64,000 nt of DNA. It comes from Halorubrum sp. CBA1229 (GTDB lineage Archaea; Halobacteriota; Halobacteria; Halobacteriales; Haloferacaceae). The DNA is taken from NCBI RefSeq assembly GCF_003721435.2, contig NZ_CP054585.1:1612001-1676000 (forward strand), written 5' to 3'. Below, piece after piece: positions 8,573 through 18,904 of the stretch. The first letter of the stretch is position 1. Each line of letters starts with the position of its first letter. The position numbers and the translations under genes were made by a program. A model generated the notes under the pieces. The model saw nothing but the letters and a program-made list of their open reading frames with translations. It was not told the DNA's origin and ran no database searches.

Positions 8573-8658
8573 ATAGCGACCCCAACGCGGAAACGTTGGT
8601 GATTCGCTGAACGGGTGTCGAAGGCCGCGCCTTCGTGTGGTTCGAGATCGATCAAACC

Positions 8659-9387
8659 ATGGAACTCGAACCAATCGACCCCGAAACGGCATTCGAGCTG
8701 TACATCGCGGAGAAAGAAACCTCGGTCGCGGACGCGACCGTCGCCTCTCACAAGTCACGCCTGAGCTTCCTACTCCGGTGGTGTGCGGAACGCGACATCG
8801 AGAACCTGAACGAGCTGACCGGCCGGCGGCTTCAGGAGTTCCAGCTCTGGCGGCGCAACGTCGGCGACCTCACGAAGGTGAGCGAGAAGACGCAGATGGA
8901 CACGCTACGCGTCTTCGTGAAGTGGCTGGAGTCAGTCGACGCCGTCGAGCAGGACCTCCACAAGAAGGTCCGCTCGCCCGATATCACACCCCGAGAGAAC
9001 AGTCGCGACGTGATGCTCGAGACCGAGGACGCCGAGACGATGCTTGCGTACCTCGAGCGATACGAGTACGCCTCGATCCACCACGTGACCGCGACGCTCC
9101 TGTGGCACACGATGCTTCGGATGGGTTCGGTGCGAGCGCTCGACGTCGACAACGGTCGAGGTGTTCCGATTCTTCAATTATTGGTGCTTGATCATTTCCT
9201 CCTACACGACGGGGCTACTTTCTGGGTTGACGCAAACGGGCTCGCGAGGCTGGAGGGCAACTGGATCTGCTCATACGGGAACCTGCCGGCGACGTTTGAG
9301 GACGTGTATGTGCTCAATCGCGACGAGAAGGGGTTCATCAACGCGGGAAGAGCGGGTCAGCGAAGGATGCGAAAGAGTGGCTCGTGA
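8659..9387 (+). pseudogene. Truncated tyrosine recombinase (integrase) with foreign tail
   Basis: Residues 1 to about 167 align without gaps to the intact integrase at 17894 (shared blocks EPIDPETA, LLRWC/FLRWC, EKTQMDT, VFVKWLES, KVRSP and WHTM). This covers the core-binding domain and the first catalytic Arg (LRMGSVRALDVD). After about nucleotide 9155 the similarity stops, and the frame continues with an unrelated sequence (VLDHFLLHDGATFWVDANG) that looks like part of another protein. The HxxR box and the nucleophilic Tyr are missing, so the protein cannot recombine DNA. It is the relic integrase of unit 3. The tail's origin is unknown. Confidence 0.85.
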
Positions 9388-10619: not shown

Positions 10620-11699
10620 TCACCGCCGGCTGTCGCGACCCGCCTCGAGTCCGACAGCCGGGTCATCGGTGCCGTGTGCGGCCTTGTAGGCGTCGACGAG
10701 CTCCCGACTGTACCGCCCGATCCGGTGCCGCGAGGTCGGCACAATCGGCTCGACCGCCGCAACCACCTGCGGCTGGGTGAGCTGCGAGCCGTCGAGGAGC
10801 CGGTCGGCCGCGTACAGCGCCGCGCCTGCGACCGTCGCCCGGGGCGTCCCCGGCCCAACCGGCACCCGGTCGGCGAGTGCCAGCAGGTGCTGGGCCAGCT
10901 GCCACGTCCGAACCGCACGGGCACCGGGAAGCGCACCGCCCTCAAGCCCCTCGAGCACCGTCACCACGGCGTCGGGCCGAGTGACGGGCACGTCGAGCGC
11001 GCATTCACACCGGAGCTTCCGGGCCGCCGCACACACCCGTTCGCGGGGTGCTTTGGCGTAGGTGGCGACCGCCTCATCGATCGCCTCACGGTCGAGGGCC
11101 GCGTCGCGCACGGCCAAGAGGACGGCGCCACCGGCGAGCGACTCCCAGGCCATCCGCCCGCCCGGCAGCCGCGCCTCCGAGCCCCGTCGGAGGTACCGGG
11201 CCGCCTGTTTGGTCACGTGGTCCGGGAGCCCCAGGTTGCCGCCGATCATCTCGACGTCACGCAGCCCTTCGTTGAGCCGCTTCGTTCGCTTGCGCTTTGC
11301 GCCGAACTGCATGCGCTTGTGCCACTTCCGCAACCGCTGGACCGTCTCCCACTGCTCGTTGCTCAGGGGATTGCCGTGTCCATCAGTGTTCCGTCCGATC
11401 TTCGTGTGGAGGCCCTTGTCCGTCCGCAGCGGGTCCACCGTCTCGATGCTCTGGTCGGCGTCTCCGACTAGGCCCAGGTCGTTCAGCGTCGGGCTCCGAT
11501 CGACCCACTCGTCGGCGACAACCAGCCCGCAGGCCGTACAGAACGATGTCTCGTCGTTGGTGATCACCTGACTCTCACACTCGGGACACACCGCCCGCGT
11601 CGAGGGCGCGTGTTCGACCGTGGGAGTGTGCCCGCGTTCAGCTGGTGATGGGAGCTGTGCGTCCGAAACCGTCTTTTCGCTCGCGTTCGTACGTGACAT
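10620..11699 (-). CDS. TFB-like transcription initiation factor (TFIIB family)
   Basis: The start at 11699 gives a 359-residue protein. Its N-terminal zinc ribbon (CPEC, 14 residues, CTACG) is followed by a B-finger/linker region and two cyclin-like repeats (roughly residues 160-250 and 260-345). This order defines archaeal TFB, which recruits RNA polymerase to TBP-bound promoters. It is more basic and more GC-rich than chromosomal TFBs usually are. It is divergent from the large ATPase gene, and TFB-like genes are common on haloarchaeal plasmids and integrated elements. It may redirect transcription toward element genes; that is inferred. Confidence 0.88.
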   Translation of the reverse strand: MSRTNASEKTVSDAQLPSPAERGHTPTVEHAPSTRAVCPECESQVITNDETSFCTACGLVVADEWVDRSPTLNDLGLVGDADQSIETVDPLRTDKGLHTKIGRNTDGHGNPLSNEQWETVQRLRKWHKRMQFGAKRKRTKRLNEGLRDVEMIGGNLGLPDHVTKQAARYLRRGSEARLPGGRMAWESLAGGAVLLAVRDAALDREAIDEAVATYAKAPRERVCAAARKLRCECALDVPVTRPDAVVTVLEGLEGGALPGARAVRTWQLAQHLLALADRVPVGPGTPRATVAGAALYAADRLLDGSQLTQPQVVAAVEPIVPTSRHRIGRYSRELVDAYKAAHGTDDPAVGLEAGRDSRR

Positions 11700-12265
11700 C
11701 GCGGTTCTCCGAAGGCGCTCGCGACAGCGCCCGACTCCCCGTGCTCTGACACGGGGATTTCGTCGACGGCACCGCCCGCCAGCGTCGGCTGCGCGCTCTC
11801 GCTCGCGCCTTCGCGAGCGCCCTCCGGGCGCGAGCGAGAGCGCGCCCGCACGGCGGCCCCACAGCCAGCCGCGCGCGGCGAGACCGCCCGGCGCGAGCGG
11901 CCAGCGGAGAAAGCGTGGGGGGTGAGCAGCCACGCCGCGCAACCCCCCGCGCTTTCCCGCTGGCGCCGAGACCATATTCACTTCAGCCCGGAACGCGGCC
12001 GAGCGGAGCGAGGCCGCGCCAGCCCGGAATGGTCGGTCGCGAGCGACGCGCCGGGCGGCAGCGGCGAGCGCGGCGCGCCGGCACACACACGCACCAGCCG
12101 CGAGCGACCACAAGCGCCACACCCCCGGCGGCTGCGCGGGGCCCCTCATCACAGCGCACGAGCCCACACCCGCCACAGCCCAACGGTGGGCCGCGTCCCA
12201 CACCCCACCCAGCAGCGTTTGATTCACAGCCAGATCGGCGGAACGTTAATGTGGGTCGTGGTACC
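11700..12265. other. GC-rich divergent control region
   Basis: This 566-base region separates the divergent TFB and ATPase genes. It is extremely GC-rich, of low complexity and rich in GCGAG/CTCGC words. A very strong hairpin lies at 11791-11845. An AT-richer segment near 12220-12265 probably contains the ATPase promoter. Long frames across it are composition artefacts. A replication or transfer origin is possible. Confidence 0.45.
11791..11845. repeat. 19-bp perfect inverted repeat
   Basis: GCGCGCTCTCGCTCGCGCC (11791-11809) is perfectly complementary to GGCGCGAGCGAGAGCGCGC (11827-11845) around a 17-base loop. It lies in the divergent control region of the element and could be an origin hairpin, a transfer nick region or a terminator. 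Confidence 0.8.
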
Positions 12266-17893: not shown

Positions 17894-18904
17894 ATGAGTC
17901 TCGAACCAATCGACCCGGAAACAGCCGTAGAACTGTACCTCGCCGATCGCAAAGCCGAGGTGGCCAAGGCAACGCTGTACTCGCACAGCTCCCGTCTCGG
18001 TCACTTCCTTCGCTGGTGTGACGAGGAGGACATAGACAATCTGAACGAGCTGAGCGGACGGACGCTCCACGAGTACCGTCTGTGGCGTCGTCGCGAGGGA
18101 GATCTCGCACCCGCTACGGAGAAAACCCAGATGGACACAATCCGTGTCTTCGTGAAGTGGCTCGAGAGCATCGACGCCGTCGTCGACGACCTCCACACGA
18201 AGGTGCGGTCGCCCGTGTTACGAGACGGTCAGAACGTCCGTGACGTGATGCTTGAGTCCGATCGTGCCGAAGAGATTCTCGAATACCTCTCGAAGTACGA
18301 GTACGCCTCACGCCCCCACGTCGTGATCACGCTGATGTGGCACACGATGATGCGGACCGGTGCGGTCCACTCGCTTGACGTCGACGACTACGATCCGGAA
18401 GGCCGGTACATCGCCGTCGTCCACCGTCCTGAAACCGGCACGACGATCAAGAATGGGGCCGATGGAGAACGGTTGATCGCGTTATCGAATGAGGTGTGCG
18501 GGCTTATCGACGACTGGATAGCGAATCGGCGGACCGATGTTGACGACGAGTTCGGCAGGCGACCACTCGTGTCAACGTCGAACGGACGCGCACATCGATC
18601 GACGCTTCGAGGAGATTGTTACAGATACACAAGGCCCTGCGTTTCTACTGGAGAGTGCCCCCACAATCGTGATCCAGATAATTGCGATGCAATGGAGTAT
18701 ACTGCTGCGTTCGACTGTCCGTCAAGCGTGAGCCCGCACGGTCTCAGGCGTGGTGGAATCACCCACCATTTGAACAGCGATGTTCCGAAAGATATTGTCA
18801 GCGATCGTGCGAACGTGACACCGGGTGTACTCAACGAACACTATGACCGGCGGAGCCAACGCGAAAGGATGGAACAGCGACGGAGGTATCTCAACAACAT
18901 CTAG
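17894..18904 (+). CDS. Tyrosine recombinase / integrase (XerC/D-like)
   Basis: The 336-residue product has an N-terminal SAM-like core-binding domain (residues about 1-110) and a C-terminal catalytic domain. Visible catalytic residues are Arg in MMRTGAVHSLD, the HGLRR box (HxxR) and Tyr in LNEHYDRRS near the end. All expected positions are present, so the enzyme is probably active. It should catalyse site-specific recombination between attP and the tRNA-Arg attB. The gene sits directly inside the att-like core at 17780 and heads the 40-kb defence unit. The broken gene at 8659 is a close relative. Confidence 0.93.
   Translation: MSLEPIDPETAVELYLADRKAEVAKATLYSHSSRLGHFLRWCDEEDIDNLNELSGRTLHEYRLWRRREGDLAPATEKTQMDTIRVFVKWLESIDAVVDDLHTKVRSPVLRDGQNVRDVMLESDRAEEILEYLSKYEYASRPHVVITLMWHTMMRTGAVHSLDVDDYDPEGRYIAVVHRPETGTTIKNGADGERLIALSNEVCGLIDDWIANRRTDVDDEFGRRPLVSTSNGRAHRSTLRGDCYRYTRPCVSTGECPHNRDPDNCDAMEYTAAFDCPSSVSPHGLRRGGITHHLNSDVPKDIVSDRANVTPGVLNEHYDRRSQRERMEQRRRYLNNI

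Follow-up and report, generated by a model that had tools for sequence, protein, structure and literature searches.

A conserved non-coding block of hairpins in front of RPA-like and TFB genes of haloarchaea: a possible DNA site for initiation and expression control

Results and Discussion

A block of hairpins upstream of a TFB gene

In the 64,000-nucleotide stretch of Halorubrum sp. CBA1229 that we analyzed (contig NZ_CP054585.1, positions 1,612,001 to 1,676,000 of the forward strand, hereafter the window), a TFB-family gene and a large HerA/VirD4-like ATPase gene point away from each other, and the DNA between them carries a long GC-rich hairpin, here called hairpin D. An earlier note on this DNA had described it as a perfect 19-bp stem with a 17-base loop that lies far beyond chance between two divergent genes, and all of this was borne out. 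The arms 11791-11809 and 11827-11845 are complementary at 19 of 19 positions around a loop of 17 nucleotides (nt), 1000 dinucleotide shuffles of 11700-12265 yielded perfect stems of at most 13 bp, the next independent perfect stem in the whole window (loop 3-30) has 12 bp and 20 shuffles of the 64-kb window gave no perfect stem above 12 bp. The divergent flanks were recovered as well, the ATPase on weak domain matches that are both below the curated cut-offs (TrwB_AAD_bind, E 8.4e-4; DUF87/HerA, E 1.9e-3). What the earlier note had overlooked is that hairpin D is one of at least five hairpins in a conserved non-coding block at about 11708-12090 (Table 1), and it is this block, its copies in other haloarchaea and its possible role that are described here.

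Table 1: The conserved block, its hairpins and the flanking genes in the window.
Feature	Position	Strand	Description
TFB-family gene	10623..11699	-	359 aa; TFIIB repeat, E 6.7e-7; the conserved element is its upstream region
Conserved non-coding block, window copy	11708..12090	-	outer 5' part missing
Hairpin B	11711..11731	-	arms 11714-11718 and 11727-11731, GGCGC/GCGCC
Hairpin C	11736..11757	-	TCCCCGTG/CACGGGGA in the window; CCGCGATG/CATCGCGG in many other copies
Hairpin D	11791..11845	-	19-bp stem, 17-nt loop; gene-strand 3' arm and loop nearly invariant
Hairpin E	11901..11963	-	closing stem CCAGCGG/CCGCTGG; interior exchangeable
Hairpin F	11986..12029	-	arms 11994-12000 and 12012-12018, flanked by two GCCCGGAA direct repeats
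Short inverted repeat and neighbouring linker	12036..12047	.	GTCGC/GCGAC; conserved
Large ATPase gene, HerA/VirD4-like	12266 (ATG)..16012	+	weak domain matches

The block is about 380 bp long in the window and up to about 570 bp in other copies. Read in the orientation of the gene behind it, an outer part and a conserved linker come first; hairpin F is then followed by a conserved stretch, and hairpin E by a further conserved linker and hairpins D, C and B, to which most RPA-type copies add hairpin A. Many other copies possess the outer 5' part (GAAAGCCCTCGGC... to ...GTCCGCCAGG), which the window copy lacks, as it also lacks hairpin A. Hairpin B overlaps a nearly invariant gene-strand motif, GAGCGCCTTC (11711-11720). 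The closing stem of hairpin E is paired in 32 of 32 aligned copies and its interior has been swapped wholesale between some of them, and the sequence of hairpin F is replaced among copies, its flanking repeats reading TTCCGGGC in gene orientation. Hairpin A has a highly variable stem whose end lies beside the start codon; of the 101 RPA-type copies scored, 93 have it 0-2 nt ahead of the ATG, as do 8 of 20 TFB-type copies. For hairpin D the gene-strand consensus fold from RNAalifold gives an alternative shorter stem carrying two small inner hairpins, and the near-invariant loop of this hairpin is able to pair with part of either arm.

For the comparison we compiled 143 copies, all of which hold an exact 23-base core by construction and from which repeated contexts were removed. 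The block ends at the start codon of the downstream gene, which is an RPA-like gene in 104 of them and a TFB gene in 20, the window included; the motif used left another 12 unclassified, several of which appear RPA-like, and 7 are too short. From the end of the core to the ATG the median distance is 103 nt (10-90%: 100-111) in RPA-type and 99 nt (97-105) in TFB-type copies. Over the first 12 codons the RPA-like and TFB consensus sequences are identical at 28 of 36 bases, with a mean pairwise identity between the two types of only 0.60. All 33 members of the RPA-like protein match the NCBIfam model for replication factor A, PRK07217 (in the member shown in detail over the OB domain and far below the curated cut-off), Pfam OB families match 15 and 7 of the 33, and a profile search against the PDB returned OB-domain/SSB proteins (E 5e-17 and 1.6e-5). 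A structure model with an overall mean predicted local distance difference test (pLDDT) of 73.6 contains a confident C-terminal OB domain (pLDDT about 90) that matches archaeal, SSB, RPA, POT1 and also HIN protein OB domains, and a C-terminal OB fold in this predicted protein is supported.

Conservation and covariation

Among the 47 RPA-type copies used for this comparison (1081 pairs), the 250 nt before the gene show a mean identity of 0.77, or about 0.75 by arithmetic if the 23 selected bases are removed, compared to 0.64 for coding sequence, 0.49 for fourfold sites and 0.58 for the protein. Covariation was scored in 32 of 76 non-redundant copies, chosen for their alignability, where both sides had changed in 16 of 47 pairs against a shuffled mean of 5.2, and 0 of 500 shuffles reached 16. 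Nine of the covarying pairs belong to helices 1 and 2 of hairpin E, five to hairpin C (all five that were scored), two to hairpin D and none to hairpin B. The scored pairs of E, C and B come from the consensus that RNAalifold gave for this very alignment, which favours them, and those of D from the window sequence. Sliding the arms by 1-3 columns lowered the share of paired cells from 98% to 29-55%. Hairpin D varies little, with 2 of its 19 pairs changed on both sides, and hairpin B is invariant in these 32 copies. Selection acts on the structure.

As the 143 copies had been selected by the exact 23-mer, the census of hairpin D was repeated on loci chosen by BLAST. A stem of at least 19 bp (one mismatch allowed) is present in 30 of the 30 best loci, the window being one of them, and among 20 lower-ranked loci hairpin D was found in 14 by the strict motif and in 16 by a looser stem search (at least 18 bp), the other four being three short forms of 10-11 bp and one truncated copy. 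The hairpin is therefore conserved in related elements, and its absence from them, which the earlier note had named as the finding that would speak against it, was not what we saw. The compensatory changes that the note had proposed to look for exist in some copies: L003, L140, L152 and L181 have matched changes in both arms of hairpin D. One-sided changes in arm 2 are found in L071, L111 and L164, and arm 1 is absent from L048 and L096. Haloarchaeal intergenic DNA holds many GC-rich inverted repeats, which would fit a functionless hairpin that arose by chance or from low complexity and was spread by hitch-hiking, but the shuffles, the covariation and a conservation above that of coding sequence contradict this explanation, and we regard it as hardly credible.

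Distribution

With the region of about 11708-12090 as query, 136 plasmid records gave a match, the 60 listed being all haloarchaeal; 2 match at 90-95% identity, 61 at 80-90% and 73 at 60-80%, and in 62 of the 136 at least 80% of the query is covered at one place. At E<=0.001 the window copy matches 278 of 391 genomes of the class, the weakest of these matches lying near the limit where GC-rich chance similarity may contribute, and an RPA-type copy used as query at E<=1e-15 matches 200 of the 391 genomes, which belong to 65 of 86 genera. A search for the exact 23-base core found it in 70 of 194 genomes, its reversed control giving zero among the matches listed; the window's own genome has five copies of this core, and the genome-contig collection has at least 119 stretches with it. 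A viral origin was considered and rejected, as 50,697 phage records hold nothing that matches the RPA-type copy and viral contigs gave no hit to the exact core.

Compared with one RPA-type reference, 55 of the 143 copies reach to -450 from the core, 84 to -400 and 137 to -275. The outer half can also stand by itself: in 15 of 145 motif hits there is no hairpin D motif within 520 nt. Two of these (L174 and L187) carry a variant of hairpin D, leaving at most 13 lone halves. Several lone halves sit at a distance of a few kb from a full copy, and behind them comes another conserved tail that appears to be non-coding. In L193, L194, L196, L197 and L203, most of them near a full copy, these tails are different but similar to each other around GAACTGTTCA..TTATTTTCG..GTAAGTAGAT, with no long reading frame directly behind, and they could represent a second non-coding element. 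That the outer part is the end of an insertion sequence is not supported, as it has 2-4 matches in seven of eight genomes checked and 13 in the eighth; the stronger matches in these eight genomes sit at or near the element or its lone half. L039, L082 and L134 carry two tandem copies of the hairpin D core at a spacing of 80-101 bp. The window copy is a shortened TFB-type copy that has no hairpin A and no primase gene found beside it, so that it may be a remnant, and with its missing outer part and its divergent ATPase neighbour it may also be a rearranged one.

Gene neighbourhood

The element lies in a gene order that recurs. In a tblastn survey of 107 loci, which are short so that the absence of a gene is uninformative, the upstream side holds an NrS-1-like polymerase gene (14 of 14 on the same strand), a D5-like helicase gene in 12 (10 on the same strand; the reference protein's own Pox_D5 match is below the cut-off) and small reading frames. 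Found downstream are the RPA-like gene (89 of 89), TFB (44 of 47, of these 43 on the same strand), a gene for a 293-aa protein (22 of 23) and DUF6735 (9 of 9). In the sample of 194 genomes, 50 of 113 elements (the second members of three tandem pairs being left out) share their contig with a listed match to PF22763, the primase-polymerase, and for 33 of the 113 the nearest match lies within 12 kb, always upstream (33 of 33), almost always on the same strand (31 of 33) and at a distance of 2.5-11 kb; as only part of the PF22763 matches entered the comparison, these counts are lower bounds.

The earlier note had suggested hairpin D as a candidate replication or transfer origin, and the frequent presence of a plasmid primase-polymerase gene on its upstream side, in the same orientation, makes a link to replication plausible. 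As a pure replication origin the hairpins would form the template on which a primase-polymerase of the NrS-1/pRN1 type starts, with no part in the expression of the neighbouring gene. The linkage just described argues for it, and so does the stem-loop of pRN1 that is required for replication (PMC4234260), together with the grouping of NrS-1-like primases with pRN1-like ones (PMC5862659). An origin, however, would need neither a fixed distance to a start codon nor shared first codons, at least two exact-core copies are present on each of 14 contigs of the sample, such plasmids have other replication genes (orc1/cdc6-type on pJ7-1 and pJCM16430-01) and no primase gene was found beside the window copy, so that we consider an origin alone unlikely.

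The second proposal of the note, a transfer origin or a site bound by the neighbouring ATPase, could point to the weak similarity of the window ATPase to conjugation coupling proteins and to the mating-pair formation type MPF_T assigned to 6 of the 10 carrier plasmids viewed. Against it, the ATPase gene lies outside the conserved block, an ATPase homologue is present in 8 of the 107 loci (at a median of about 6 kb; only 55 loci hold at least 4 kb upstream) and 136 of 136 plasmid records are typed as non-mobilizable by MOB-suite via PLSDB, a tool that may miss archaeal systems. We think this proposal very improbable. Binding of the ATPase in particular is not supported, as the conservation stops near 12090, short of the ATPase gene, and it is the TFB or RPA-like gene that the hairpin accompanies, and for the same reason ATPase binding or a divergent-promoter role was rejected as the leading explanation.

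Other parts of the window were inspected for their gene content. The stretch 22556-55621 resembles a defence island by its Pfam domains, with SMC/AAA ATPases, a metallophosphatase and Rad50-like pair, a HerA-like ATPase, a McrB-like AAA_5 protein, a ResIII helicase and two N6/N4 DNA methylases, all of them functions predicted from sequence. Two integrase-like genes flank the region of the block, one at 8635-9384 with a weak N-terminal SAM-like domain only, below the cut-off, and one at 17894-18901 with a phage-integrase domain. The plasmid pJ7-1 (L205/L206) is annotated with an ArdC-like single-stranded-DNA-binding protein, a SOS-associated peptidase, two Orc1/Cdc6-type genes and BREX genes.

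DNA or RNA structure

In hairpins D, E, C and B we counted 1438 Watson-Crick, 9 G-U, 6 A-C and 23 other pairs, wobble thus being rare and without strand bias. Hairpin A, counted in the 70 of 89 distinct segments that form it (the 19 without the hairpin being left out), gave 369 Watson-Crick, 0 G-U, 11 A-C and 1 other out of 381 pairs. The consensus folding energy of the whole element is -108.9 for the gene strand and -109.6 for the other strand, or -114.8 with a separately made alignment of the other strand, and G-U and A-C make up 2.5% and 0.5% of the pairs in the whole consensus fold of the gene strand, and 5.0% and 0.6% in that of the other strand. RNase P RNA, taken as a control from 30 of 39 class genomes searched, folds at -98.7 on its true strand versus -83.2 on the other, with 7.0% G-U and 0.8% A-C on the true strand and 9.4% and 1.5% on the other. 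Because the folding program favours G-U pairs in either strand submitted to it, what counts here is that the two strands fold with equal energy and that G-U and A-C pairs are balanced in D, E, C and B. These equal energies and the rare, unbiased wobble in hairpins B to E suggest that the structure is formed in DNA.

A known RNA family was rejected, since at the gathering score of Rfam tRNA was the only match in the window and no family matched the element. With a structured 5' mRNA leader, transcription would begin upstream, one example being the vicinity of the AT-richer patch that precedes hairpin E, and through the hairpins the RPA-like or TFB gene would be regulated at the level of transcript elongation or of translation, perhaps as autoregulation. 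For such a leader speak the position directly before the gene at a near-constant distance in the classified copies, the first codons that two unrelated gene types share in consensus, the abutment of hairpin A on the ATG in RPA-type copies and also hairpin F, where 42 G-U pairs stand against 6 A-C pairs, a G-U count that is inflated by related sequences. The folding energy without strand preference, the near absence of wobble in hairpins D, E, C, B and A and the lack of an Rfam family argue against it, and one leader for two unrelated proteins is contrary to simple autoregulation. On balance we find an mRNA leader rather unlikely. As a separate candidate, hairpin A as a loop-exposed Shine-Dalgarno site was rejected, its loop having no constant motif and a Shine-Dalgarno-like word in 24 of 66 loops.

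Proposed role

Because the distance to the start codon is nearly constant and the downstream gene is exchanged between copies, the block appears to control the gene behind it, and because of its DNA-like profile and of the RPA-like protein and the primase-polymerase in its company, an event on single-stranded DNA comes into question. Joining both lines leads to an initiation site that couples priming or transcription to the expression of the first gene. We therefore propose tentatively, and at a confidence somewhat short of probable, that the hairpin is part of a conserved cis-acting site of DNA hairpins for the control of initiation and expression in a haloarchaeal plasmid module. This module would comprise an NrS-1-like primase-polymerase and, less surely, a D5-like helicase upstream and the RPA-like single-stranded-DNA-binding protein and TFB downstream. 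When the stretch becomes single-stranded or is extruded, the hairpins would fold as a fixed scaffold with conserved unpaired linkers that acts mainly as DNA. The scaffold might be recognised by plasmid and host proteins (the RPA-like protein, the primase-polymerase and TFB/TBP), and this recognition would lead to the synthesis of a primer and/or a transcript, by which the directly following RPA-like or TFB gene is made first. DNA as the functional form, the initiation of synthesis and the identity of the binding proteins are the parts that we infer.

Several observations weigh against this proposal. The G-U excess of hairpin F favours an RNA or gene-strand structure, hairpin C shows 26 G-U against 12 A-C pairs if its loop-closing pairs are included, and the share of G-U pairs alone cannot tell the strand, so that the case for a DNA structure is suggestive only. 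The region before the gene could also have been homogenised by recombination without strong selection, and the selection of copies by the exact 23-mer inflates the conservation of that core. By eye no TATA-like box was seen in the approximately 100 nt before the gene, a search with an archaeal promoter model not having been made. For 80 of the 113 elements, the part of the PF22763 matches covered includes no primase gene within 12 kb. A strict single-strand model, finally, predicts that the copies of one replicon lie on the same strand, which is not clearly supported, as the exact-core copies agree on 7 of 14 multi-copy contigs (7 of 10 without four contigs numbered C1); a hand count over BLAST lists of about 19 to 5 in favour of the same strand mixed in neighbouring half-copies and is not used as evidence.

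A more specific form of the proposed control site would be an archaeal counterpart of Frpo/ssi, an initiation site on single-stranded DNA whose hairpins would recruit archaeal RNA polymerase factors or the plasmid primase on incoming or displaced single strands, so that primers would be made there along with the first transcripts of the RPA-like and TFB genes. We judge this form unlikely but not negligible; if true, it would mean a single-stranded stage in the life of these plasmids. A block that is kept more strictly than the protein behind it (in RPA-type copies) and is found in 65 of 86 sampled genera probably has a basic role for its carrier plasmids or integrated elements, and it offers a defined target for studying how replication or gene expression begins on haloarchaeal plasmids and whether a single-stranded stage is involved, matters that are poorly understood.

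Comparison with known systems

Within the open-licence literature covered by our search, itself seen in part, no recognisable description of the element was found. Structured DNA for initiation or control on plasmids is a known kind of element, and the present family of it appears to be new. A 5' mRNA leader would share with it the position directly before a start codon and differ in wobble and strand energies, which are not RNA-like in most hairpins, F excepted. Rep-Arvir genes of haloarchaeal viruses and plasmids have stem-loops downstream, and these resemble the element as conserved stem-loops in the non-coding DNA of haloarchaeal mobile elements (PMC13107129), whereas the element is tied to RPA-like and TFB genes and has no match in phage records; a term search of the main text of PMC13107129 found neither TFB nor RPA in it.

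Closer likenesses are offered by two systems, and membership in neither of them is claimed. In pRN1 from Sulfolobus replication depends on a stem-loop of about 100 bp that lies downstream of, and next to, the gene for the replication protein, which has primase activity; this stem-loop is kept more in structure than in sequence (PMC4234260), as our element is kept in its hairpins. The element differs by its several hairpins, which are tied in position to the start codon of another gene, and by the primase gene being kilobases away on the other side. Frpo of bacterial conjugative plasmids is a known dual site of the kind proposed here, coupling priming or transcription to gene expression, and several candidates per element exist in Frpo/ssi (PMC11541004). 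Similar to these, our block is hairpin-forming non-coding DNA directly before an SSB-type gene in 104 of 143 copies, the window copy preceding TFB. In contrast to them, it is archaeal, no promoter motifs were identified by eye in its stems and it has no known origin of transfer (oriT) or leading region. All copies of a Frpo/ssi-type site would be expected on the transferred strand; the copies of the haloarchaeal block agree in strand on 7 of 14 multi-copy contigs, or on 7 of 10 without the four contigs numbered C1.
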